Part shown: positions 7,404 to 51,733 of the stretch, in pieces
Position numbering within the stretch: the stretch's first letter is position 1
Layout: the number at the start of each line of letters is the position of its first letter
NCBI GenBank assembly: GCA_017857755.1
Contig: JAFMCM010000004.1
Coordinates: 1-64,000, forward strand
Direction: 5' to 3'
Length of the DNA: 64,000 nucleotides
Source: Methylophilaceae bacterium
Lineage (GTDB): Bacteria > Pseudomonadota > Gammaproteobacteria > Burkholderiales > Methylophilaceae
Made by a program: the position numbers and the translations under genes
The notes under the pieces: generated by a model
The model's database searches: none
Told to the model about the DNA's origin: nothing
The model's input: the letters and a program-made list of their open reading frames with translations, nothing else

Positions 7404-8957
7404 CTATAGTTGAGGATTGAGTTTTTCAGACTTGCTATACAGCTTATTTAAGCCATTTAGATAGGCTTTAGCTGATGCAATCACAATATCTGTATCGGCG
7501 CCTTGTCCGTTGACAATGCGCCCACCTTTGGACAAGCGAACGGTTACTTCACCTTGTGCATCTGTGCCACTGGTAATGTTGTTAACTGAATACAGTTGCA
7601 ACTCTACGCCGCTGTTTGCAATACTTTCAATCGCTTTAAAAGTGGCGTCAACTGGACCACCGCCATCTGCTTGTGCGCTTTTTTCGATGCCATCGGCAGA
7701 TAAGGTAATTTCAGCATGCGGCACCTCACCAGTCTGCGAGGCGACATGTAAATAAACTAATTTAAAATGCTCACTGGCGACACTGTCAAATTCGTCACTC
7801 AATAAGGCATGTAAGTCTTCGTCAAAGATTTCAGATTTTTTATCAGCTAAGGCTTTAAAGCGCGCGAAAGCCGCATTTAGCGCGTCTTCACTGCTTAATT
7901 CGATACCCAATTCTTTTAAACGCGTTCTGAATGCATTGCGGCCTGACAATTTACCCAAAGTAAGTTTATTGGTGTTCCAGCCAACATCTTCGGCACGCAT
8001 AATTTCATAGGTTTCACGATGTTTTAAAACGCCATCTTGATGAATGCCGCTTTCATGCGCAAACGCATTGGCACCGACAATGGCTTTATTCGGTTGCACT
8101 GGATAGCCAGTGATTGTCGACACAAGTTTAGACGCTGGTACGATTTGGGTCGCATCAATCCTTGTTGTTAAATTGAAGTAATCTTGACGTGTTTTAATCG
8201 CCATCACCACTTCTTCCAAGCTGGCATTACCAGCGCGTTCTCCCAACCCATTGATGGTACATTCGACTTGACGTGCTCCATTAGCGACTGCCGCCAAGGA
8301 GTTGGCAACCGCCATGCCTAAATCATTATGACAATGCGTGCTCCAGACTACTTTGTCTGCATTTTTGACCCGTTTAATCAAAGTTGCCATACGCTCACCC
8401 CATGGCTCTGGAATACTGTATCCCACTGTATCAGGCACGTTGATTGTAGTTGCACCAGCCGCAATGACCGCATCGAACACGCGCACTAGAAAATCCATTT
8501 CAGAACGCACCGCGTCTTCGGCTGAAAATTCCACATCATGGGTATATTCCAGTGCCCATTTAACGGCTTGCACTGCGCGCTCAACAACCTGGTCTTCGCT
8601 CATGCGCAATTTGTTTTCCATATGGATTTTGCTGGTGGCAATAAAGGTATGAATACGCCCGTTCTTTTCAGCGTGCTGCATAGCAGGAGTAATCGCTTCA
8701 CCAGCGCGGCGAACATCATGCTCACTGGCGCGGGCAAGCGAGCAAACGGTTGACTGGGTAATAAAGCCTGCAATCGTATGGATAGAATCAAAGTCGCCTG
8801 GACTGGCGGCAGCAAAACCGGCCTCAATCACGTTCACGCCTAATTTTTCTAATTGTCGCGCAATTCGAATTTTCTCTTCTTTAGTCATGGCTGCGCCTGG
8901 GCTTTGTTCGCCATCACGCAAAGTGGTATCAAAGATAATTACTTGTTCTTGGTTCAT
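7404..8957 (-). CDS. leuA: LeuA, 2-isopropylmalate synthase
   Basis: Condenses acetyl-CoA with 2-oxoisovalerate to 2-isopropylmalate, the first committed step of leucine synthesis. The TIM-barrel domain begins with [14 protein letters not shown], holds the metal-binding HCHNDLG motif near residue 210, and has [13 protein letters not shown]. The C-terminal part (about 390-510) is the LeuA regulatory domain that senses leucine; [13 protein letters not shown] is typical. Length 517 residues is normal. A TAGGAA ribosome site precedes the ATG. The upstream 190 bases carry a promoter and a leucine-rich leader peptide, so both feedback inhibition and leader-based control are expected. Confidence 0.97.
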
Positions 8958-9004
8958 GTTGTATTCCTAATCAATACGCTAGATTATAAATGCTTTTAGC
9001 CATC

Positions 9005-9052
9005 GCATGTAAGAGGCGAGAGCAAGAATGACGGTATTAGAGGGAGGTGGTT
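9005..9052 (-). promoter_or_regulatory. C-rich, G-poor leuA leader segment (possible Rho site)
   Basis: Read on the minus strand, the 48 bases after the leader peptide stop contain 19 C and only 4 G, with no obvious hairpin plus T-run anywhere before leuA. A C-over-G bubble of this kind is typical of Rho loading sites. It would fit an attenuator where ribosome position decides whether Rho terminates. This is inference from composition. Confidence 0.3.
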
Positions 9053-9145
9053 TTAGTGTGCGCTAGCGCGCAGCAGCAGTGTAGGGCTTGATAATAACAA
9101 ACCGATGCGAGTATTGAGGGCTTGAATTGTAAAATCAATCAGCAT
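9053..9145 (-). CDS. Putative leuA leader peptide
   Basis: A 30-codon reading frame directly downstream of the probable leuA promoter. Seven codons are leucine among residues 10-25, including two runs of three (TTG TTA TTA in RIGLLLSS and CTG CTG CTG in PTLLLRA), and the frame ends ASAH-stop. The RxIGLLL pattern resembles the LeuL peptide of enteric bacteria. No ribosome site precedes the ATG: it lies 7 bases after the -10 box, so the transcript would begin at or next to the start codon (leaderless). Leucine starvation would stall ribosomes on the Leu runs. No classical attenuator hairpin follows. Confidence 0.5.
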   Translation of the reverse strand: MLIDFTIQALNTRIGLLLSSPTLLLRASAH

Positions 9146-9152
9146 GCGAACC

Positions 9153-9181
9153 AGTATAGGTGGTTTTTTATTTCTGATCAA
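9153..9181 (-). promoter_or_regulatory. Probable sigma-70 promoter of leuA
   Basis: On the minus strand, TTGATC (9176-9181) and TATACT (9153-9158) are separated by exactly 17 bases. The expected start of transcription falls at about 9145-9147, on the ATG of the leader peptide and about 190 bases upstream of leuA. Confidence 0.6.
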
Positions 9182-9209: not shown

Positions 9210-10013
9210 TTACGCCTTAGGCGTTTTACTTTTCAATGTTGATTTAAGCCAAAGGTAATAACCTGACAAAGCGTAAATAAGCACTACCGTAAACAATACT
9301 TCGGGTGGGCTGTAGGAAACCAAAACAAAGGCTAACATAATGGCTAAAATGGCCACAAAAGGCACACTTTTTTTCAAATTAACATCTTTACCACTATAAA
9401 AAGACAAATCACTGACCATGGAGCCAGCAGCGAATACAGTGAAACCCCACGCCAACCACTGCATTTTAATCGCACCAAAGAATATCTCACGTCCAGAAAT
9501 GCCATACTCATAGGAGACCCAAACAAAACCCGCTAACAATGCAGCAGCAGCGGGACTGGGCAACCCTTGAAAATAACGCTTGTCTTGAAATGGGTCTTCT
9601 AACTTGGTGTTGAATCTTGCCAACCTTAAAGCGGCGCAAGCGCAATAAATAAAGGCCGCTATCCAGCCAATTTTACCAAGGGGTTTGAGCGCCCAAACAT
9701 ACATAATGAGGGCTGGTGCTACGCCAAATGAAACCATATCTGACAAGCTATCGTATTCCGCACCAAAGGCACTTTGCGTATTGGTCATCCGGGCAACACG
9801 TCCGTCCAAGCCGTCCAAGACCATGGCAAGAAAAATCGCAATTGCAGCTTGTTCATATTTCATGTTCATGGCACTAACAATTGCAAAAAAACCTGAAAAT
9901 AAGGCGGCAGAAGTGAATAAATTGGGCAATAGATAAATGCCTTTTACCCGCAAGCTTTGGATGTCAGCCTCGTCTGGTTCTTGTCTTTCTAAACGCATTG
10001 GTTGTTTTGCCAT
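9210..10013 (-). CDS. pssA: PssA, CDP-diacylglycerol-serine O-phosphatidyltransferase
   Basis: A 267-residue membrane enzyme that transfers phosphatidyl from CDP-diacylglycerol to serine, giving phosphatidylserine, the precursor of phosphatidylethanolamine. The CDP-alcohol phosphotransferase signature is complete: DGLDGRVAR followed by GAEYDSLSD (residues about 68-90), with all aspartates present. About six to eight hydrophobic segments follow. This is the integral-membrane type II enzyme, common outside enterics. It sits upstream of leuA on the same strand, an order seen in other betaproteobacteria, but leuA has its own promoter 30-60 bases after the pssA stop. Confidence 0.93.
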   Translation of the reverse strand: MAKQPMRLERQEPDEADIQSLRVKGIYLLPNLFTSAALFSGFFAIVSAMNMKYEQAAIAIFLAMVLDGLDGRVARMTNTQSAFGAEYDSLSDMVSFGVAPALIMYVWALKPLGKIGWIAAFIYCACAALRLARFNTKLEDPFQDKRYFQGLPSPAAAALLAGFVWVSYEYGISGREIFFGAIKMQWLAWGFTVFAAGSMVSDLSFYSGKDVNLKKSVPFVAILAIMLAFVLVSYSPPEVLFTVVLIYALSGYYLWLKSTLKSKTPKA

Positions 10014-27390: not shown

Positions 27391-28551
27391 TTAATCCGCT
27401 TGCTTACGTAAAAATGCTGGAATGTCATACTCTTCAACACCATTCGACTTCATAGCATCCACTTGCGCACGACGGCTGTTAGAGCTGAATACCGCAGGCT
27501 CATCATTTAAGTCTTCCGCATAAATCGGCATGTTATTTGTCCCATCACGCAAGGTCGTCATGACACGTAATTCAGGCTTCTGTTCACGTTTTGCAACTGG
27601 GCCGTTTAAACCAGTGGCTACCATTGTTACGCGTAACTTATCACCAATGGTTTCATCCATTACCGTACCAACAATCACTGTCGCATCTTCTGCAGTAAAC
27701 GCTTTGATTGTGTTCATCACGTTGTAATATTCTTTCATTTTAAAGCTACTATTTGACGTAATATTGACTAATACACCGCGTGCATTAGCTAAATTCACGT
27801 CTTCTAACAATGGACTTGCAACAGCTTGCTCTGCTGCAATAATCGCACGATTTTCACCACTAGCTTCTGCTGACCCCATCATCGCCATACCCATTTCACT
27901 CATGACAGTCCGTACATCCGCAAAATCCACGTTGACTAAACCTGGGGAATTAATGATTTCTGCAATTCCTGAAACTGCATTGTGTAAGACGTCGTTCGCG
28001 GCACGGAATGCTTCTAAAAACGGCACGTCTTCACCCAATACTTCCATTAATTTCTCGTTTGGAATCACAATTAACGAATCAACATATTGTGATAATTCTG
28101 CCAAACCTTCTTCCGCTATTTTTGTACGTTTCCCTTCAAATGCAAATGGCTTGGTAACAACTGCAACTGTTAAGATGCCCATTTCTTTTGCAACTTCAGC
28201 AATAATCGGTGCAGCGCCTGTTCCAGTACCGCCGCCCATACCAGCAGCAATGAATAGCATATCTGCACCTTCAATCATTTCTGCAATTTGATCTCGGTCT
28301 TCCAGCGCCGCTTCGCGCCCAATTTGAGGTTTTGCCCCTGCACCTAAACCCTTGGTAATATCCGACCCGATTTGTAAAACCTGTGCTGCGCCACTTTTGC
28401 GCAATGCTTGCGCATCGGTGTTAGCACAAATAAATTCAACACCATTGACCACTTTGCCTATCATGTGGTCAACTGCGTTACCACCGCAACCCCCGACACC
28501 GATTACTTTAATCACAGCTTCTTGTGAATCTTTTTCCATAATTTCAAACAT
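27391..28551 (-). CDS. ftsZ: FtsZ, cell division GTPase
   Basis: Tubulin-like protein that forms the Z ring and directs septal wall synthesis. The GTP-binding motif GGGTGTGAAP lies near residue 106, the N-terminal GVGGCGGNAV is present, and the T7 loop NVDFADVRT is near 205. The C-terminal peptide EEYDIPAFLRKQ, which binds FtsA and other partners, is intact. Length 386 residues. A strong GGAG site precedes the ATG. It is the last division gene of the cluster, with ftsA 86 bases upstream, so an internal promoter is possible there. Confidence 0.98.
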   Translation of the reverse strand: MFEIMEKDSQEAVIKVIGVGGCGGNAVDHMIGKVVNGVEFICANTDAQALRKSGAAQVLQIGSDITKGLGAGAKPQIGREAALEDRDQIAEMIEGADMLFIAAGMGGGTGTGAAPIIAEVAKEMGILTVAVVTKPFAFEGKRTKIAEEGLAELSQYVDSLIVIPNEKLMEVLGEDVPFLEAFRAANDVLHNAVSGIAEIINSPGLVNVDFADVRTVMSEMGMAMMGSAEASGENRAIIAAEQAVASPLLEDVNLANARGVLVNITSNSSFKMKEYYNVMNTIKAFTAEDATVIVGTVMDETIGDKLRVTMVATGLNGPVAKREQKPELRVMTTLRDGTNNMPIYAEDLNDEPAVFSSNSRRAQVDAMKSNGVEEYDIPAFLRKQAD

Positions 28552-50470: not shown

Positions 50471-51733
50471 ATGCACCTTTCCGACCTTAAACATTTACCT
50501 GTTACCGAGCTAGTCGATATGGCTATTGCAGACGGCGTTGATAACGCCAGTCGCATGCGCAAACAAGATGTGATTTTTGCTATTCTAAAAAATAAGGCAA
50601 AAAAAGGTGACAACATCTTTGGTGATGGAACGCTTGAAGTGCTACAGGATGGGTTTGGTTTTTTACGTTCTCCTGACACGTCTTACCTCGCGGGCCCAGG
50701 TGATATTTATGTTTCGCCTTCGCAAATTCGTCGCTTCAATCTGCACACTGGCGACAGTATTCAAGGCGAGATTCGTACACCTAAAGATGGTGAGCGCTAC
50801 ACTGCACTGGTCAAAGTAGACACAGTGAATGGTGAAGCGCCAGAGAACACCAAACATAAAATATTATTTGAAAACTTAACACCCTTATTCCCAACTGAGC
50901 CTTTAACGCTTGAGCGTGACATTAAAGCCGAAGAAAATATTACCAGCCGTGTTATTGATATGATTGCGCCAATTGGTAAAGGTCAACGGGCGCTACTTGT
51001 TGCTAGCCCAAAGAGTGGCAAAACTGTGATGATGCAAAATATCGCACATGCGATTACAGCTAACCACCCTGATGTGACACTCATCGTATTATTAATTGAC
51101 GAACGTCCCGAAGAGGTGACAGAAATGACGCGCTCTGTTAAAGGTGAAGTTGTTGCATCAACCTTTGATGAGCCCGCAGCACGTCATCTGCAAGTGGCAG
51201 AAATGGTCCTAGAAAAAGCGAAGCGATTAGTTGAACATAAAAAAGATGTTGTAATTTTATTAGACTCAATTACCCGTTTAGCACGCGCTTACAACACAGT
51301 TATTCCATCATCAGGAAAAGTGCTTACTGGCGGCGTTGATGCAAATGCATTACACAAACCCAAACGCTTCTTTGGAGCTGCTCGAAATATAGAGGAAGGC
51401 GGCTCGCTCACTATTATCGCAACAGCGCTAGTTGATACTGGGTCGCGTATGGACGATGTGATTTACGAAGAGTTTAAAGGCACAGGCAATATGGAGATTC
51501 ACTTAGATCGCCGTATGGCAGAAAAACGAATTTACCCTGCAATTAACGTAAACAAATCAAGCACTCGTCGCGAAGAGCTATTAATTGAAAAAGATGTTTT
51601 ACAAAAAATATGGGTGCTTCGTAAACTATTGTACCCAATGGATGATTTAGAAGCGATGGAGTTCTTACTTGATAAAATTAAGCAAACGAAAAACAATGCA
51701 GACTTCTTTGATAGCATGCGTCGCGGCGGTTAA
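50471..51733 (+). CDS. rho: Rho, transcription termination factor
   Basis: Hexameric RNA helicase that ends transcription at C-rich sites. The N-terminal domain has [15 protein letters not shown], the RNA-binding cold-shock domain has [20 protein letters not shown], the P-loop reads SPKSGKT near residue 178 (where enterics have PPKAGKT), and the R-loop and Q-loop blocks [22 protein letters not shown] are intact. Length 420. No clear ribosome site precedes the ATG, consistent with low, self-limited expression known for rho. The possible Rho site in the leuA leader would be one of its targets. Confidence 0.97.

Follow-up and report, generated by a model that had tools for sequence, protein, structure and literature searches.

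Upstream of leuA in a Methylophilaceae bacterium, and of leuA genes across its order (Betaproteobacteria), there lies a short ORF that is strongly supported, by comparison of sequences, as encoding a leucine-rich leader peptide translated from a leaderless transcript. The arrangement is, on balance, best explained as attenuation of leuA in response to leucine and mediated by the ribosome, which would read a leaderless leader, with Rho acting as the terminator.

The window referred to below is the whole stretch of DNA analysed, 64,000 nucleotides from one end of a contig. The promoter and the 30-codon frame with two Leu-Leu-Leu runs that a sequence-only reading of this DNA had placed ahead of leuA are both where that reading put them (Table 1). 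Taken alone, the promoter (TTGATC-17-TATACT, scoring 9/12 in a consensus scan) is weak and unremarkable evidence, and 1.7 such sites are expected by chance in the stretch scanned. A perfect TATAAT, however, stands 6 nt upstream of the same leader ATG in three species of the window's genus. In the window the corresponding gap is 7 nt, so transcription should start at the ATG or within about 1–3 nt of it.

Table 1. Features of the leuA leader region in the window (coordinates are positions in the window)
Feature	Position	Strand	Basis or remark
leuA, 2-isopropylmalate synthase, putatively regulated gene	7404..8957	-	
pssA	10013..9210	-	upstream neighbour of leuA
-35 hexamer TTGATC	9176..9181	-	promoter consensus scan
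-10 hexamer TATACT	9153..9158	-	7 nt between -10 end and leader ATG
Putative leaderless leader ORF, 30 codons + stop, MLIDFTIQALNTRIGLLLSSPTLLLRASAH	9053..9145	-	conservation and coding selection
First Leu-Leu-Leu run, codons 16–18	9092..9100	-	
Second Leu-Leu-Leu run, codons 23–25, conserved control codons, Arg CGC directly after	9071..9079	-	
Hairpin 1, UGCGC-GCUA-GCGCA; 5' arm starts inside the last Leu codon	9059..9072	-	
C-rich, G-poor, mostly unpaired tract, candidate rut site	9005..9052	-	20 C, 4 G in 48 nt
Hairpin 2, weak, GCUCUCGC..GCGAUGGC, without U-tract	8999..9023	-	
AGGA, Shine–Dalgarno site of leuA	8965..8968	-	

How widely is the leader distributed? The sequence ahead of leuA was taken both from relatives and from genomes sampled evenly over the order, giving 148 loci, and a leader was defined as an ATG-initiated ORF of 15–65 codons, with at least three Leu among its last 16 residues and a -10 box (TAnnnT, 4/6 matches) ending 4–12 nt upstream of the ATG. 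By this definition 96 of the 148 loci possess a leader; reverse-complementing the same loci left one, and dinucleotide shuffling gave 3.95 per set. For a strict form (LL.R, with a -10 box matching at 5/6), the corresponding figures are 75 of 148, none and 0.05. Such conservation across leuA loci excludes a chance origin of the ORF. The sequence-only reading had named conservation of the peptide in relatives as a check on its proposal, and the Leu codons are indeed retained in these leaders. A full leuA is present in five species of the window's genus, and in four of these the leader precedes it. Beyond the window's family, Methylophilaceae (relatives here include Methylotenera, Methylovorus, Methylobacillus and Novimethylophilus), the element is present in Rhodocyclales, Nitrosomonas, Nitrotoga, Gallionellaceae, Tepidiphilus and other Betaproteobacteria, and exact matches to its motif in Betaproteobacteria lie no more than 400 nt from leuA in 86 of 92 cases. 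About one-third of the 148 sampled leuA loci have no recognised leader, among them L005, L012, L029, L032 and L042; several of these five relatives have small genomes. The betaproteobacterial leader motif was also seen on one MAG contig (L188) labelled Chitinophaga pinensis, so the label or the binning is probably wrong.

When the 60 nt upstream of the leader ATG were searched for a -10 box, the best candidate lay at a distance of 6–10 nt in 85 of the 96 loci, a distribution that is partly conditioned, because the definition of a leader itself demanded a -10 box within 4–12 nt. In the set of exact motif matches, which was selected without any promoter condition, a -10 box falls within 4–12 nt in 86 of 92, every one of them at 6–9 nt. 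A Shine–Dalgarno-like 4-mer at -18 to -4 precedes none of the 96 leaders, as against 89 of the 96 leuA genes, and the two marks of a leaderless mRNA (here a predicted start at the ATG, and no Shine–Dalgarno sequence) are thus both apparent from sequence alone. Selection on the ORF is that of a coding sequence: when related leaders were compared in 39 pairs, the leader frame (with the last five codons excluded) had a pN/pS of 0.42 and the two alternative frames had values of 1.46 and 1.17, and the Leu codons vary synonymously from leader to leader (CTG, CTA, TTA, TTG, CTT, CTC) while still specifying Leu. The usual predicted product has 27–28 residues and a C-terminus resembling GLLLAGLLLRxAR. 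The abundance of codons for the regulated amino acid, which is characteristic of the leader ORFs of attenuators, is seen both in the sequences and in the selection acting on them. On -10 spacing, lack of a Shine–Dalgarno sequence, coding selection and synonymous Leu codons, and from its occurrence before two leuA families (below), the leaderless leucine leader proposed in the sequence-only reading is strongly supported; what that reading overlooked is a hairpin, conserved among the leaders, that begins within the last Leu codon.

This hairpin (hairpin 1), of the form UGCGC-N3/4-GCGCR with loops of up to 6, is present in all 98 aligned loci, and in 97 of them its first two bases are part of a Leu codon in the leader frame, usually the final codon of a Leu-Leu-Leu run that is followed by Arg. 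The leader stop codon lies anywhere from 6 to 21 nt past the start of that Leu codon, and in some species is inside the loop. The conserved unit is therefore the Leu codon plus the hairpin, which speaks for a ribosome stall on the Leu codons as the signal, and against a stop-codon arrest like that of TnaC. In leaders ending R-x-A/G-R, the Arg, Ala or Gly, and Arg residues are encoded by CGC (50/50), GCG (41/41) or GGG (9/9), and CGC (50/50), respectively; for comparison, in leuA GCG provides 29% of Ala codons and CGC 50% of Arg codons. In the window's genus the end of the peptide is altered to R-A/V-S-A-H, with the stem unchanged. Compensated forms of the hairpin are found in L058 and L088 (UGCCC..GGGCR) and in L030 (UGCGU..ACGCG), and, since the arms are nearly invariant, formal base-pair covariation is slight, with a single double change among 40 sequences. 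In GC-rich relatives, hairpin 1 has a mean predicted probability of only 0.37 in the context of the whole leader, and the whole leader of the window folds no better than shuffled sequences (z -0.19).

Past the stop codon, the sequence-only reading had described the next 48 nt of the window as rich in C and poor in G, and this stands, with 20 C where 19 had been counted. The same skew is seen across the leader loci: C and G contents average 49% and 6% over the first ten nt past the stop, and 40% and 11% over the next ten, with background reached by about 40 nt, whereas leuA loci that have no leader show no such C skew on average. For 86 of the 96 loci the predicted unpaired fraction is higher in the tract than elsewhere in the spacer (0.66 versus 0.42), and about 35 nt of the tract are predicted to be unpaired in the window. 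A C-rich, G-poor, unstructured stretch in or past the ORF, such as characterises Rho-dependent attenuators, is thus in place; in most relatives the tract extends for some 20–25 nt, which is short for a full Rho site. The spacer has a length of about 75–150 nt, and many relatives have a hairpin of differing sequence at the position of hairpin 2. In L063, L141, L145, L137 and L150, a block like CAATTCGnnGTACCC, common to many loci, is situated between the C tract and hairpin 2, and in L009 a strong hairpin and then TTTTT (GCACCTGAT...ATCAGGTGC), possibly an intrinsic terminator, occur between leader and leuA. The window also contains a rho gene (Rho RNA-binding domain PF07497 at 50624–50845, plus strand).

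Some exact motif matches precede a different, distantly related 2-isopropylmalate synthase (about 550–570 residues, of the DLRDGNQA type). Among 30 loci of this second leuA family, about eight have clear leaders (L243, L250, L251, L253, L254, L256, L258 and L266), and in L244, L245, L248 and L262 the hairpin and C tract are kept, with a leader that falls below the promoter threshold. Of 120 genomes of the order, 61 gave matches to a covariance model of the motif at E<=0.1; the 54 matches at E<=0.0135 comprise 40 before type 1 leuA and 14 before type 2, and in some genomes (G014, G033) the motif precedes both types. At equal settings, the model detected the motif in 95 of 276 genomes of the order versus none of 276 of the wider class. 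Placement before a gene for synthesis of the amino acid concerned in many genomes, another feature of attenuators, hence extends to two leuA families. The window's own divergent copy scores weakly in the model (14.6 bits, E 0.089), so distant variants elsewhere could be missed. A second match in the window, at 27818, was weak (10.4 bits) and was taken as chance.

If transcription is attenuated here, by what means might it be terminated? In classical attenuation, hairpin 1 would pause transcription, a downstream hairpin would be an intrinsic terminator, and an antiterminator would form when the ribosome stalled. The downstream hairpin of many loci, the T-rich tails in L009, L139, L090 and L064, and the slightly better folding of the region past +20 than of shuffled sequences (mean z -1.1) are in keeping with such a scheme, but a strict scan of the leader loci revealed intrinsic terminators in only 3 of 96 spacers, and the 3' arm of hairpin 1, once released, shows less pairing with the sequence beyond it (0.60) than with shuffled spacers (0.68). 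In the window itself the downstream hairpin has no U-tract, and neither a consensus scan nor a stricter one found an intrinsic terminator on the leuA strand between leader and leuA, so that the earlier statement that no intrinsic attenuator follows the leader proves true of the window and general among its relatives; the classical scheme is accordingly rather unlikely. Attenuation at the level of translation, on the pattern of the LEU element of Actinobacteria or the mycobacterial polycysteine ORFs, with the leader trapping the leuA ribosome-binding site until a stalled ribosome frees it, seems unlikely too. Masking the leader raises the predicted accessibility of the leuA Shine–Dalgarno site slightly (0.38 to 0.46), with increases of more than 0.3 in 12 of 90 loci and decreases of that size in none, yet pairing of this site with the leader is equal to that with codon-shuffled leaders (0.368 versus 0.365), and it seldom pairs with the C tract (0.04). 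From these negative results on terminators, freed arm and Shine–Dalgarno pairing, neither a classical nor a Shine–Dalgarno-sequestering design is conserved.

Two other explanations were considered. The C tract and hairpin might bind some other factor, or form a stable, trans-acting attenuated RNA, with leader translation tuning RNA stability and not termination. The unpaired, C-rich nature of the tract, the anti-Shine–Dalgarno-like CCUCC within it in several species, and the precedent of the trans-acting attenuator RNA rnTrpL of Sinorhizobium (PMC7298713) would suit this idea, which is nevertheless distinctly improbable, as the tract varies in the detail of its sequence and the strict association with leuA implies a role in cis. 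Alternatively, the near-invariant GCGC-N-GCGC inverted repeat might be seen as a DNA operator, with the ORF incidental. This was rejected as highly improbable: the spacing of the arms ranges from 3 to 6 nt whereas the register of the Leu codons with the hairpin is kept, and the ORF is under coding selection. From the anatomy of the leuA leader, leucine-responsive attenuation is very likely, and control by leucine supply through the translating ribosome can be put forward with high confidence.

Rho as the terminating factor is the best remaining reading, reached by elimination and from composition, and is probably, though far from certainly, correct. It is favoured because of the unpaired C-rich tract past the control codons, the length of the spacer, the presence of a rho gene, and the precedents of tnaC and CruR. 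In the scheme that we envisage, the promoter sets the predicted start of the transcript at the leader ATG. When charged Leu-tRNA was short, the ribosome would stall on the Leu run and hold hairpin 1 open; stalled against the C tract, it would stop Rho from loading, or from catching up with RNA polymerase, and transcription would continue into leuA. When leucine was plentiful, the ribosome would finish and depart, hairpin 1 would close, and the C tract would be exposed as a rut site, at which Rho could end transcription before or early in leuA, with the variable hairpin 2 as a possible pause site. Judged by the general size of ribosome footprints, a ribosome whose A site held the last Leu codon would extend about as far as the stop, leaving some 10 nt between it and the C tract. 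Masking alone would therefore be incomplete, and Rho may instead be excluded by the bulk of the ribosome, by ribosome–RNA polymerase coupling, or by hairpin 1.

The textbook system of amino-acid attenuation comes from enteric bacteria and has a Shine–Dalgarno-led leader and competing hairpins. An example is leuL-leuABCD, in which a Leu-rich leader with ribosome-read control codons lies ahead of leuA and attenuation uses a classical terminator. The element described here has in common with leuL the Leu-rich leader before leuA and the control codons, and differs in being without a Shine–Dalgarno sequence, a 5' UTR, an intrinsic terminator or a conserved antiterminator; the resemblance to LeuL that was pointed out in the sequence-only reading is one of function, and does not extend to membership of a leader family, since six leader peptides matched none in Pfam or NCBIfam. 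Rfam scans of the window region and 16 related loci likewise gave no relevant family. The combination of features and its spread over Betaproteobacteria were not found in these databases or in the searchable literature, which was that in open access; subscription papers lie outside it, and a prior description there is possible.

Individual features do have parallels. In the actinobacterial LEU element, a Leu-run leader ORF upstream of leuA, with no terminator, has Leu codons that pair with the leuA Shine–Dalgarno sequence at the base of a conserved pseudoknot (PMC1262725); the ORF and the lack of a terminator are shared, but Leu codon–Shine–Dalgarno pairing is at the level of codon shuffles in our loci. 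The mycobacterial polycysteine leaderless short ORFs are described as acting on translation of the downstream genes (PMC9031893; cited PMC13236596); they share with the leuA leader the leaderless ORF and consecutive codons for the regulated amino acid before a biosynthetic operon, and differ in their translational action, in concerning cysteine, and in belonging to another phylum. The trpL (peTrpL) transcript of Sinorhizobium starts at the leader ATG, as is predicted here, but responds to tryptophan and has an intrinsic terminator and antiterminator (PMC7298713). As for Rho, a ribosome stalled in the short ORF tnaC of Escherichia coli keeps it from a rut site located within or immediately past the ORF (PMC8429421), and in a betaproteobacterium, Bordetella, a ribosome stalled at CruR gates its access to an unstructured rut region with more C than G (PMC9426467). 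Both of these are arrest peptides, sensing free Trp or copper, whereas stalling at hungry Leu codons is expected here, because it is the Leu codons and not the stop that keep register with the hairpin.

It is an evenly balanced proposition that we are dealing with an attenuator extending throughout the betaproteobacteria, in which a leaderless peptide, the register of codon and hairpin, and a C-rich Rho site replace terminator and antiterminator before two leuA families. A large bacterial group would then appear to control its leucine synthesis by means of a leaderless leader that is followed by no terminator. If this is so, translation of a leaderless message can act as a timed sensor among Proteobacteria, and hungry-codon stalling joins the signals that gate Rho. 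The leuA leader is a small, conserved and easily built test case for such ideas and, for annotation, a real small gene overlooked by current family libraries.

Finally, we draw attention to a perfect TATAAT at 8983–8988 (minus strand), 26 nt upstream of the leuA ATG and downstream of the putative attenuator. It is kept in the four leader-bearing species of the genus, with a poor -35 region, and might act as an additional promoter whose transcripts escape attenuation.
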